Positions 41,527 to 44,992 of a stretch of 64,000 nucleotides of DNA are shown here, in pieces. The notes beneath the pieces are model-generated. The model was not told where the DNA came from. It was given only the letters and a program-made list of their open reading frames with translations, and made no database searches. Origin of the DNA: an uncultured Eudoraea sp. (lineage in GTDB: Bacteria > Bacteroidota > Bacteroidia > Flavobacteriales > Flavobacteriaceae); contig NZ_CANLGX010000003.1 in the NCBI RefSeq assembly GCF_947490415.1, forward strand, positions 517,821-581,820. The letters run 5' to 3'. The position numbers and the translations under genes are program-made. The first letter of the stretch is position 1; each line of letters starts with the position of its first letter.

Positions 41527-41534
41527 CAAATTTA
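41527..41534 (-). promoter_or_regulatory. -7 element TAAATTTG
   Basis: TAAATTTG on the minus strand matches TAnnTTTG, 19 bp before the ATG of the UPF0173 gene, and overlaps the stop codon of the histidine kinase gene. Confidence 0.5.
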
Positions 41535-43490
41535 TTTAAAATTGAACCAAAAACGTACACCATCCGTAGTTTTATCAATATTTAATGTAGATTGTAATTG
41601 ATTTACCAGACGCTTCATTAACCGAATCCCCATTGATGAATTGGCCCTTTCTTCAGATTCTTCGTCAAGTCCTATACCATTATCGGTATACTCAAAGAAT
41701 CCCTGGTCGCCGTTTTTTCTAAGGTGGATATATATTTTACCATCGGCGTCATCATCGGGAAATGCATATTTAAAAGAATTTGACACCAACTCATTTAATA
41801 TTAATCCAAAAGGGATGGCCCTGTCAATATCCAATTCAACCCCTTCAGCGTCAATTGTTATATTAATACTATGTCCTCCTTTTTTGAATACTGATTGTAC
41901 ACTATTGACCAAACTTTCTATATAACCCTGCATTTCAATAACAGATAAATCATCATTTTGATATAACTTCTGATGTATTAGAGCCATAGCTTTTACCCTG
42001 CTCTTTCCTTCTTCAAGAGCTTCAATAGCCGCTTTACTTCGCGTATTTTTGGTTTGAAGACTCAAAAGGCTCGATACCATTTGCAGGTTGTTTTTTACAC
42101 GATGATGAATTTCTTTAAGTAAAGAATCTTTTTCTACCAGAGAATTTTCAATTATATGCTTCTGCTCGGCAATCAGACGTTGATTCTTTATACTTTTTAA
42201 ATAGGCATAAACTAATCCCGCAAAACCCAATAGAGTAAAAACCAAAGAAATAAAAACCAGGTTTATCTGCTCATCCTTAGCCTGCATTTCATTTCTGGCG
42301 CGTTCCATTTCCAGCTTTTGCGCATCTATCATTCTTTTGGAATTCTCAATTTCATATTTTGCAACTGTGGAAAGTTGTTGTTTTTTAAGTGAGGAGTCAT
42401 TGATATTAATAGAATCGGCAATCCTTACATTTTTCTTTAAGTAAAAACTTGAATTTTTATAGTCCTCAATCTTGTCGTAATATGCAGCCAGCAGTCTGTT
42501 TTTCTTAATAATATGCTCTATTTTAATGGGATTGAGAGCTTCATTTAATATATCCTTTGCTTTTTGAAAATTTTCCAGCTGAAGGTGACAATCTGCAAGT
42601 GCCAGACTATTTTCAATCACATCCTCAGAATACTGCCCAATATTATTTTCCTTTATTAAACCAATACTATTTTCCAAATAAGGTAAGGCCTCCTCAAATT
42701 GTTTTAGCTGCAAATAGGATTTACCAATATTCCCTTCAATAATTCCCTTTAATAATTTGGCATCCTGTAATTCTTTCTCCGTCTTAACCTGGGTCACATC
42801 ATTTAAAAATACATCCACATAACCTTTGGCTTTTTTAAAATTACTTAACGCCACCGAGGAAGACTTGTCCAGAAGTAAATACCGGCCTACATTATTATTG
42901 TATTCTGCAAGACCGTAGAGATCACTATTATCAATGGTCTTTTTCATATCCATGATATAATCTTCCATGGCTTTTCTATGCAAACCCAGATTAGAATAAA
43001 TATCATAAAAGGTAATATTCTCGGAGAAACCTAAATCTCTTTTCTCCTGTCTTATCTCAACTTGCTTTCCATATAGTTGTAACTGTGAATAGTTACTATC
43101 TATCAGATCTAACATAAACCTCTTGGTCTGCAAATCGAGCCCATCTTTCACAGAATACAGGTCATTGGCTATAGCCACACTTTTGTCGTAGTCACCCAAA
43201 TCATAATAAATTTGAGATTGCATGAGCTTATAATTATTTATAGCTGTTGAATCTCCTGACTTCTCTGCAGAATTTAGATAAACATTAACCTCGTCTAACC
43301 AATCATAGGCGGAGTTTTCATTGTACCTGTGTAGTGTATTAAAGAAATAATCAAACCTATCGGCAACACTTTGCTTTTCCTTAAATACATCCAATACATT
43401 TTCATCCAAGGTGTCTAAAACCTGGGCTCCGACACTTTGAACTAAAGAAAGAAAAAATATTACTAAAATTTTACCCAGCGATTTTGCCAT
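41532..43490 (-). CDS. TPR-containing sensor histidine kinase (HisKA_2 family)
   Basis: A 652-residue kinase. Signal peptide (ILVIFFLSLVQSVGA), a periplasmic region of TPR-like helices (about 45-360), a membrane span (about 409-430), a short coiled coil, a HisKA_2 domain with the phosphorylated histidine in EIHHRVKNNLQ (His462) and an HATPase domain (N-box LNELVSNSF, Asn566 and Asn571; G-box DNGIGL). It ends without a receiver domain. The LytTR regulator gene 749 bp upstream is the likely partner. Its leader (about 70 nt) follows promoter module 1, which has the same geometry as two modules in front of the candidate small RNAs. Confidence 0.92.
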   Translation of the reverse strand: MAKSLGKILVIFFLSLVQSVGAQVLDTLDENVLDVFKEKQSVADRFDYFFNTLHRYNENSAYDWLDEVNVYLNSAEKSGDSTAINNYKLMQSQIYYDLGDYDKSVAIANDLYSVKDGLDLQTKRFMLDLIDSNYSQLQLYGKQVEIRQEKRDLGFSENITFYDIYSNLGLHRKAMEDYIMDMKKTIDNSDLYGLAEYNNNVGRYLLLDKSSSVALSNFKKAKGYVDVFLNDVTQVKTEKELQDAKLLKGIIEGNIGKSYLQLKQFEEALPYLENSIGLIKENNIGQYSEDVIENSLALADCHLQLENFQKAKDILNEALNPIKIEHIIKKNRLLAAYYDKIEDYKNSSFYLKKNVRIADSININDSSLKKQQLSTVAKYEIENSKRMIDAQKLEMERARNEMQAKDEQINLVFISLVFTLLGFAGLVYAYLKSIKNQRLIAEQKHIIENSLVEKDSLLKEIHHRVKNNLQMVSSLLSLQTKNTRSKAAIEALEEGKSRVKAMALIHQKLYQNDDLSVIEMQGYIESLVNSVQSVFKKGGHSINITIDAEGVELDIDRAIPFGLILNELVSNSFKYAFPDDDADGKIYIHLRKNGDQGFFEYTDNGIGLDEESEERANSSMGIRLMKRLVNQLQSTLNIDKTTDGVRFWFNFK

Positions 43491-43566: not shown

Positions 43567-43630
43567 TAAACTTACTATTAATTCGTCTAGCGTTTAAATT
43601 TTTGTTGTAAAGTAGAATGAAACTGTTGTC
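43567..43630 (-). promoter_or_regulatory. promoter module 1 (histidine kinase)
   Basis: Minus strand: GACAAC and TACAAC (plus 43625-43630 and 43604-43609) 21 bp apart, then exactly 29 bp, then TAAGTTTA (43567-43574), one base off TAnnTTTG. The 21-bp period is the two-turn spacing used by LytTR DNA-binding domains. It faces the kinase gene, with its ATG 76 bp beyond the box. Confidence 0.65.
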
Positions 43631-43758
43631 TACCATAGCTCTTAGTAAATATTAAGGCTCATAACAAAATATTTTCATCCATACTTTTAATACCAAAACA
43701 CCTTCAATTTTCCGCTTTTATTTCTTGTAATCATCCCTATAAAATACGTGGGGCAACT

Positions 43759-43835
43759 AAAAAAAGACTATACACAAAGCATAGCCTTTTAAACGGTGAT
43801 ATATTAATGATAAGATTTGGGGTGCTGTATCAGCG
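43759..43835 (-). ncRNA. candidate small RNA A (about 75 nt)
   Basis: Follows promoter module 2 by a few bases and ends in a terminator-like hairpin. As minus-strand RNA the hairpin is a fully paired 12-bp stem (two G-U pairs), loop of 5, and a 7-U tail (plus A run 43759-43765); as plus-strand RNA two pairs are lost. No ATG start occurs in it. The 5' part is unstructured and holds a C-rich stretch (CACCCC). The transcription start is estimated from the -7 box. Confidence 0.55.
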
Positions 43836-43838
43836 CTT

Positions 43839-43902
43839 CAAATTTATTACCTAGAAATTTAGCATTCGGGTTTTTGTTGTGTAAGTGCATAATTATGTTG
43901 TG
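43839..43902 (-). promoter_or_regulatory. promoter module 2 (small RNA A)
   Basis: Minus strand: CACAAC and CACAAC (plus 43897-43902 and 43876-43881) 21 bp apart, then 29 bp, then TAAATTTG (43839-43846), a full match to TAnnTTTG. Upstream of the repeats it shares TAATG and AAA..GCT..T with module 3. Confidence 0.7.
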
Positions 43903-44009
43903 AAACAGCATTTTATAGTCATTATATGCATTTTACCCGATTTTTTTAGCCTTTCATGGAGTATTAATTCAAGTGAGAATAGAAATCCGGTTCAATTCAA
44001 AATGGTATT

Positions 44010-44095
44010 AATCAAAAAGAGTCCTGCCAACTAAGACAAGACTCTTTTACGAGAACACTATATGAAAATGAAAAAAATTTATCTAATTAATTACA
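44010..44095 (-). ncRNA. candidate small RNA B (about 85 nt)
   Basis: Follows promoter module 3 by a few bases. It ends in a hairpin (44015-44048) with 9 perfect pairs, extended as minus-strand RNA by five more pairs (two G-U) to a 6-nt loop, then five U. On the plus strand the inner five pairs break. No ATG start in it. Its distance from the operator repeats to the hairpin (87 bp) is nearly the same as for RNA A (86 bp). Confidence 0.55.
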
Positions 44096-44098
44096 TAG

Positions 44099-44162
44099 CC
44101 AAAGTATTCCTATTCTTCCTCAGGGAAAAATAATTGTTGTGAAGTAGTTCAAATGTGTTGTG
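44099..44162 (-). promoter_or_regulatory. promoter module 3 (small RNA B)
   Basis: Minus strand: CACAAC and CACAAC (plus 44157-44162 and 44136-44141) 21 bp apart, then 29 bp, then TACTTTGG (44099-44106), one base off TAnnTTTG. Between the repeats it shares CTACTT with module 1. Confidence 0.65.
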
Positions 44163-44239: not shown

Positions 44240-44992
44240 CTATGAGTTCATGGCAGAAATAATGAACTCTTTGAAATCTTTCGAAATCGGGATAAGGGTA
44301 TTATTGATCATAATATCCTTAGAGTTAATAGCGTCTATATGATCTACGTTTACGATATAAGATTTATGTGCCCTGTAGAATTTATTTTTGGGTAATTTCT
44401 CCAAATAATCTTTTAAGGGAGATCTTACCAAAAATTTCTTGTCTATTGTATTCACCTCCAGATAAACATTATCTGCCTTAATAAACTGAATATCTCCAAA
44501 CTGAATGCGATAATAAAGGTGTTGCTTTTTAACAAAAATCGAGTCTTTGAGAACAGAATTAGATACTACCCTTTCCTCATCTTCCGGGTGTTCCTGCCCT
44601 CCCTCTTTGGTTGAGTAATCAAAATTTGAAAGCGCAATTTCGATAGAAGTGTATAAATCCTGCTGTTCAAATGGCTTTACAAGGTAGCCATTAGGTTTTA
44701 CTGTCTTAGCGTTCTCCACAGTAGCCCTATCTGAATTGGAAGTGACAAAAATGAAGGGAATATTGTAGTTCTCTCTAATATGTTTCCCTAAATCTATTCC
44801 AGTTTTGTCGGATGCTAAAATGATATCAATAAGCACCAGGTCTACATGATTGTTTTTTAAAACCTCTTCAGCCTGTTCGTAAACAATTACATTATCTACA
44901 ATTTCATATCCTATTTCCTCCAACATGGATTGCATGTCGTCTGCAATAATCACATTATCTTCTACAATAAGAATCTTAATAGCTTGTTCCAA
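44240..44992 (-). CDS. LytTR family response regulator
   Basis: A 250-residue regulator. Receiver domain (about 5-125): acidic pair Glu11-Asp12, phosphoacceptor Asp56 (LVLIDIIL), Thr84 and Lys106 (VKPFEQ). LytTR DNA-binding domain (about 150-248; FIKADNVYLEVNT, RAHKSYIVN). No ATG begins the gene: the first usable start is TTG at 44992, and the next in-frame ATG would remove the first receiver strand and the acidic pair. Its own promoter box overlaps the menA stop. Partner of the nearby histidine kinase by context; the likely binder of the ACAAC repeats. Confidence 0.92.
   Translation of the reverse strand: MEQAIKILIVEDNVIIADDMQSMLEEIGYEIVDNVIVYEQAEEVLKNNHVDLVLIDIILASDKTGIDLGKHIRENYNIPFIFVTSNSDRATVENAKTVKPNGYLVKPFEQQDLYTSIEIALSNFDYSTKEGGQEHPEDEERVVSNSVLKDSIFVKKQHLYYRIQFGDIQFIKADNVYLEVNTIDKKFLVRSPLKDYLEKLPKNKFYRAHKSYIVNVDHIDAINSKDIMINNTLIPISKDFKEFIISAMNS

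Follow-up and report, generated by a model that had tools for sequence, protein, structure and literature searches.

It is highly probable that three 64-bp modules in the window, by which we mean the whole 64,000-nucleotide stretch of DNA analysed, are the LytTR promoters of one two-component system of the Flavobacteriaceae, serving the gene of the system's own kinase and two small RNAs, A and B, with longer RNAs, termed C, driven by the same modules elsewhere in the genome. In the mechanism that we propose, the TPR histidine kinase, responding to a signal that is itself only inferred, would phosphorylate the LytTR regulator, which would bind the 21-bp direct repeat of a module and recruit RNA polymerase to the TAnnTTTG box that lies a constant 29 bp away. 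Module 1 would drive the kinase gene itself, providing feedback, and modules 3 and 2 would drive the short regulatory RNAs A and B, respectively. RNA A may pair over the start codon of a CAP-domain lipoprotein mRNA, most likely blocking its translation, and B, together with the C RNAs, may pair with a tandem family of RNAs, S, probably titrating it.

All elements of the locus lie on the minus strand. The LytTR regulator has the highest coordinates and is followed, towards lower ones, first by module 3 with RNA A, then by module 2 with RNA B, and finally by module 1 and the kinase. The regulator gene (44240-44992) has a TTG start and encodes a response regulator of 250 aa with a receiver and a LytTR DNA-binding domain (Pfam Response_reg 1.9e-20, LytTR 2.4e-17). 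The sensor histidine kinase of 652 aa (41532-43490; Pfam HisKA_2 3.6e-27, TPR_12 5.2e-11, HATPase_c 8.2e-9) comprises a signal peptide, a TPR region, a membrane segment and HisKA_2 plus HATPase, signal peptide and membrane segment being assigned by eye. What is expected of a two-component system, i.e. a receiver-LytTR regulator adjoining a histidine kinase, is thus met on the basis of Pfam. Module 3 (44099-44162; ACAAC-N16-ACAAC, 29 bp, box TACTTTGG) is the putative promoter of RNA A (44014-44095; seed 44071-44052, terminator hairpin 44048-44014), module 2 (43839-43902; box TAAATTTG) that of RNA B (43759-43836; complementary to RNA S at 43822-43807, terminator-like site 43790-43759) and module 1 (43567-43630; box TAAGTTTA) that of the kinase gene, autoregulation being an inference, as are the 5' ends of both RNAs.

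LytTR domains recognise direct repeats spaced by about 21 bp ahead of the promoters they activate, the AgrA-type consensus being ACAGTT, and the TAnnTTTG box is a usual flavobacterial promoter element. The three modules can be read directly as the sequence-only reading had described them, each being 64 bp long with a repeat period of 21 bp and 29 bp to the box, and their repeats, about 21 bp apart upstream of promoters presumed to be controlled, conform to the pattern of LytTR regulons. The window contains three ACAAC-N16-ACAAC dyads, all of them part of complete modules, and dinucleotide shuffles of the window (n=60) yield a mean of 0.083 dyads and no complete module. Genome-wide the bare dyad is frequent, so that the dyad by itself is unspecific and only the dyad plus box is specific; with more matches in the backward control than in the genome (36 vs 24), it was rejected as a genome-wide site marker.

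The fixed spacing is also observed in relatives, i.e. the best 80 of 279 related loci, with regulators 88-99% identical and Eudoraea adriatica as nearest named organism. Within 1 kb downstream of the regulator TAnnTT is found at exactly 29 in 141 of 146 dyads, the runner-up offset accounting for 12, where ACMAC was permitted as first repeat and the 29-bp gap was tested without being assumed; the rest of these loci contains 8 dyads in 1.48 million strand-bases, none with a box at 29. Exact modules (first repeat AC[AC]AC, box at 29) lie within the same 1 kb in 69/80 of the relatives (at least one), 54/80 (at least two) and 18/80 (three). Among 120 thinned modules from relatives the first repeat is ACCAC in 55%, and positions that were not part of the selection are conserved as well (T at position 18 in 95% and A at position 26 in 99%). 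A genome scan, part of the check that the sequence-only reading had proposed, was performed with a 73-bp model, R1, built from 90 relative modules with the own genome excluded, and ranks the window modules 1st, 3rd and 7th in the 3.9 Mb genome: modules 3, 2 and 1 score 43.0 (the genome's top match), 37.4 and 31.1 bits, and the next best match in the window scores 12.0.

What the modules precede had been overlooked in that reading, namely non-coding RNAs with terminators in the case of modules 3 and 2 and the kinase gene in the case of module 1. Its suggestion that modules 2 and 3 stem from a duplication gains support, with the amendment that the small RNA was duplicated along with its promoter; in relatives, some B copies include parts of the A seed. 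Nine complete modules are present in the own genome (among R1 matches with inspected loci, matches without the complete pattern, e.g. C8:37915, being excluded). Five precede units of hairpin and U-run, i.e. A, B, a second copy of A (A2, module at C3:240699) and two tandem C RNAs, C1 and C2 (modules at C1:954648 and C1:955052), and four precede reading frames, i.e. the kinase, a PAS protein (C9:56889), a secreted-like protein (C5:1798) and a 35-aa ORF (C1:928566). The same output classes recur downstream of modules in relatives. As side observations, the 35-aa ORF (MDAQINHRPIEEEIQVYRNEFFSGIVMLTRKLFMF), for which a Pfam search gave no match, has look-alikes at the same place in relatives, as judged by eye, and the gene of the secreted-like protein (..QVKIGENPNxINxASIxELES..) carries CCAAATC shortly 5' of its start, in relatives likewise.

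Complementarity of RNAs B and C to RNA S

In the own genome RNA S forms four short RNA-like units in tandem (C1:512128-512811), to which the core of B is complementary. S has a core of 40 nt, a terminator and a TAnnTTTG-like box, and R1 does not match it. The B core is found in 33/80 relatives at up to 2 mismatches (best 80 of 279). Pairing of B with the four S units gives z values of -2.4 to -5.5 and lies beyond all 100 shuffles in three of the four; the predicted S-B duplex has 16 bp, with both terminators kept. Positions of 7-mers complementary to S number 202 in 33 B RNAs (shuffle mean 12.5) and 243 in 25 C RNAs (shuffle mean 22.4, maximum 47), and 4 in 53 A RNAs (shuffle mean 10.8), and the 25 C RNAs contain 95 exact stretches of at least 7 nt complementary to S. 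In all three counts the RNAs are related and not independent, and the C count comes from 16 loci (2 own and 14 of 20 fetched, six with reading frames having been excluded by eye). As B and C are rich in S-complementary stretches, they may be sponges, titration of S being inferred.

The roles might also be reversed, with S acting as a constitutive sponge that sets a threshold and B and C being the real regulators, a possibility that we rather doubt but do not set aside. Complementarity is symmetric, S has TAnnTTTG-like boxes without a module match, and its sites are not significantly enriched before gene starts, as 88 matches were obtained before 696 starts (864 kb) and 43 of 300 motif shuffles were as high. 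However, the 31-nt core of S (up to 3 mismatches) is present in 46/149 family genomes, comprising 25/25 with the regulator (2-6 copies) and also 21/124 without it (1-3 copies), which lack module matches, too. Being present in the latter, S should act without module-driven B and C. Furthermore, the 31-nt core is identical in most copies listed, which also argues against a mere sponge. B and C as sponges of S remains the reading that we provisionally prefer, although the lack of S targets in the scan of the 696 gene starts counts against it as well.

Two candidate S-target leaders, one of which we take to be GldK-like, were dropped (z -1.4 and -0.8), and pairing of S with the own CAP mRNA was not beyond shuffles (z -0.9 to -1.7). 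S-like 7-mers are found before CAP genes and also before control homologues (48 vs 9.3 and 33 vs 5.2), so that no claim is made for S and CAP. Separately, a short RNA-like unit at C4:179156 contains CCCAAATCTTATCA, CCTACTT and a terminator, with a single ACAAC 29 bp before a CATCTTTG box, and is among the strongest predicted partners of S.

Co-occurrence of modules and regulator

Matches to R1 at E<=1e-6 are found in 25/149 family genomes and the regulator at E<=1e-90 likewise in 25/149, and the two sets are identical, i.e. there is no exception in either direction at these thresholds. In the 24 other regulator-bearing genomes the regulator is 88-93% identical in 20 and 70-79% in 4. This co-occurrence (25/25 vs 0/124) lends strong support to the proposal of the sequence-only reading that all three modules are activated by the adjacent LytTR regulator, although activation and binding are inferences in the absence of binding data. 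As the family genomes are related, the co-occurrence does not amount to 149 independent events, but to few.

One might still argue that the modules are bound by another regulator and that the LytTR pair is a mere neighbour or fellow target. Binding by the LytTR regulator is an inference, the repeat departs from the AgrA-type consensus that the sequence-only reading had quoted, and at 11/80 regulator loci (best 80 of 279) no exact module lies within 1 kb of the regulator, one of the 11 having a module with 1 mismatch. We nevertheless regard control by another regulator as very unlikely, as modules and regulator coincide without a single exception and do so even where kinase and modules are no longer next to the regulator. 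A point against our own reading is that 19/80 loci show neither A nor B within that 1 kb. Four genomes drawn from the 11 loci (three Arenibacter and one Pricia) were searched alongside one module-bearing genome, and all four have module matches elsewhere, 5 to 9 at E<=1e-5; in the three Arenibacter one of these modules is followed by a B-like RNA and by a kinase gene that has changed place and shares 52-55% identity with that of the window. In genomes whose regulator is more divergent, modules are located between regulator and kinase. G077 has five of them, one of which carries 1 mismatch, G096 has four, and G030 has two, one of which carries 2 mismatches; judged by eye, a hairpin and a U-run follow most of these modules. 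Three genomes with regulators of 70-78% identity contain modules and RNA-like units and lack the exact A seed. Finally, the 21-bp repeat spacing fits the repeat residues at -51/-72 of RgaR, as given in the accessible part of the respective report (PMC10602386). Control of the modules by the adjacent LytTR regulator is thus the interpretation on which we rely.

RNA A and the CAP lipoprotein gene

RNA A fulfils what may be asked of a small RNA, i.e. a module precedes 54/54 fetched exact copies, its terminator covaries and no ORF is shared (by eye, from the alignment). In an unselected test, the best match to the 20-nt seed was sought up to 90 nt from a module in the best 80 of 279 relatives. This match is exact in 51 relatives and differs by 1 mismatch in 2 and by 7-10 in 16, the remaining 11 being without a module, so that the matches split into two clean classes. 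The exact 19-nt complement of A occurs at 61 sites in 22/149 genomes, all within the 25 regulator genomes and 0/124 others. These sites are 56 RNA A copies with module (54 fetched and 2 own) and 5 CAP gene starts (one own); 58 were fetched from other genomes, and the module is located upstream (up to 2 mismatches) in 54, the other 4 being the CAP gene starts. At up to 2 mismatches the A pattern matches 58/149 genomes, hence the exact form alone is diagnostic. Six sites with 1-2 mismatches (five in regulator-less genomes and one in G077) were inspected and rejected as A or CAP, none having a module.

The terminator of RNA A is changed on both sides in 11 of 14 pairs in 80 aligned copies, with 94.3% of cells paired and 106 double-changed cells as compared to a shuffle mean of 26.2 (0/500 shuffles as high), and all five measures of covariation are above 500/500 shuffles and all slid controls. 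As these 80 copies were chosen by the exact 19-nt match, the invariance of the seed within the alignment is due to selection. A rival reading takes A and B for mere leader fragments left by premature termination of the kinase transcript, or for side products of promoters whose only relevant output is the kinase. It can invoke their tandem position ahead of the kinase gene, with which they share the strand, and the lack of RNA data. It is hardly credible, as genomes with A carry from 1 to 5 exact copies of this RNA, some distant from the regulator locus and each with its own module, and as the A seed is conserved besides the hairpin and matches a distant mRNA.

This mRNA encodes a CAP-domain lipoprotein, to whose start codon the A seed is antisense. 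In the own genome the 20-nt A complement has three sites at up to 3 mismatches, one in each A copy and one at the start of the CAP gene, which codes for a 158-aa lipoprotein (lipobox by eye; CAP domain, Pfam 2.6e-13). CAP homologues at E<1e-40 exist in 21/149 genomes, all 21 with RNA A; the next homologue, in G077 (1.5e-40), is not accompanied by an exact A, and G057 has RNA A and no CAP match at E<=1e-20. Duplexes with the A seed were computed for the best CAP homologue of 30 genomes, 18 of which are orthologues (at least 55% identity), start codons being guessed for homologues whose match began late. For 18/18 orthologues a duplex with the CAP start is predicted, with z values from -4.2 to -10.9 and energies between -20.1 and -33.4 kcal/mol; every one of these duplexes lies beyond its own 200 shuffles and spans the start codon, and no strong pairing with A is found in 12/12 other CAP homologues (z -1.4 to +1.0). 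Co-folding of A with CAP RNA is predicted to leave the A terminator intact.

Without gaps, the seed has 0-2 mismatches in 11 of the 18 orthologues, 3 in G018, G001 and G080, and 5 to 7 in G037, G050, G056 and G129. In G056 and G129 this ungapped match (7 mismatches) is no better than controls, and in G050 much of the duplex energy is located upstream of the CAP start region; several changes in the CAP target retain a G-U pair, as read from the duplex table. Four of the 22 exact-A genomes are without a complementary CAP gene, G102, G135 and G086 having an unpaired homologue of 47-51% identity, which is counted among the 12 above, and G057 no match. Judged from sequence alone, RNA A appears to be a trans-acting small RNA with the CAP start as target; the complementarity is observed to be conserved, and expression and repression are inferred. 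As an observation apart from this, the 5' leaders of CAP genes frequently contain repeats of AGAACAC, CCCCAT and CCTACTTA on the upstream side of the A site.

Comparison with known systems

In the open-licence literature searched we found neither the regulon nor the CAP target nor any of the RNAs A, B, C and S described, and Rfam at gathering score gave 0 matches in the window and 0 in nine further loci, A2, C, S and CAP among them; three weak window matches (best E 1.0) were judged chance. Among systems with related features, RgaR is of the LytTR type and VirR is a LytTR regulator. According to the accessible part of the source, RgaR of the RgaS-RgaR/SpoZ system of Clostridioides difficile binds direct repeats whose residues G-51 and G-72 are separated by 21 bp, and is the direct activator of a small regulatory RNA (PMC10602386); this system, however, belongs to Firmicutes and involves one RNA and an Agr peptide operon, and multicopy RNA families are not mentioned in that part. 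AgrCA/RNAIII of Staphylococcus and VirSR with VR-RNA, VirT and VirU of Clostridium perfringens, as far as covered by the portions available, similarly combine repeats upstream of the promoter with a regulatory-RNA effector (PMC4227749, PMC10602386), and thus share with the system proposed here a LytTR regulator with regulatory-RNA output, but AgrA answers a peptide signal, whereas the window's system has short multicopy RNAs and a TPR HisKA_2 kinase.

The FopS family of Bacteroides thetaiotaomicron consists of multicopy paralogous small RNAs that pair with translation starts of surface-protein mRNAs, yet, in the accessible part of the report, it has canonical sigma promoters, an unknown regulator, SusC-like targets and the protein RbpB, with no mention of a LytTR module (PMC11697453). 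Rfp18 of Flavobacterium psychrophilum is a conserved Flavobacteriaceae small RNA with a tested phenotype, but, within the parts available, it affects metalloprotease mRNAs with pairing predicted via its third stem-loop, and LytR is unmentioned in the main text (PMC9723704). LytTR-driven regulatory RNAs are therefore known in Firmicutes and multicopy start-site small RNAs in Bacteroides, and their combination, like RNAs A, B, C and S, was not found described.

Regulatory RNA networks of marine Bacteroidota are poorly known, and the finding offers a regulator, a predictive site model and several RNA families, along with one sharply defined mRNA target that is directly testable and gives a handle on CAP-domain lipoproteins; it may moreover reveal a two-component system that acts by RNA titration of small RNAs. 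In the Gac/Rsm system, GacA acts via several sponge RNAs with repeated sites, RsmX, Y and Z, and the titrated partner is the protein RsmA. The window's system could be an RNA-only counterpart, a reading that we put forward tentatively and with slightly less than even confidence: its LytTR output would be mainly RNA, with C as multi-site and B as single-site sponges titrating S and with A silencing the CAP lipoprotein, so that the titrated partner would be an RNA instead of a protein and, if true, the signal would be converted into a shifted balance of small RNAs.
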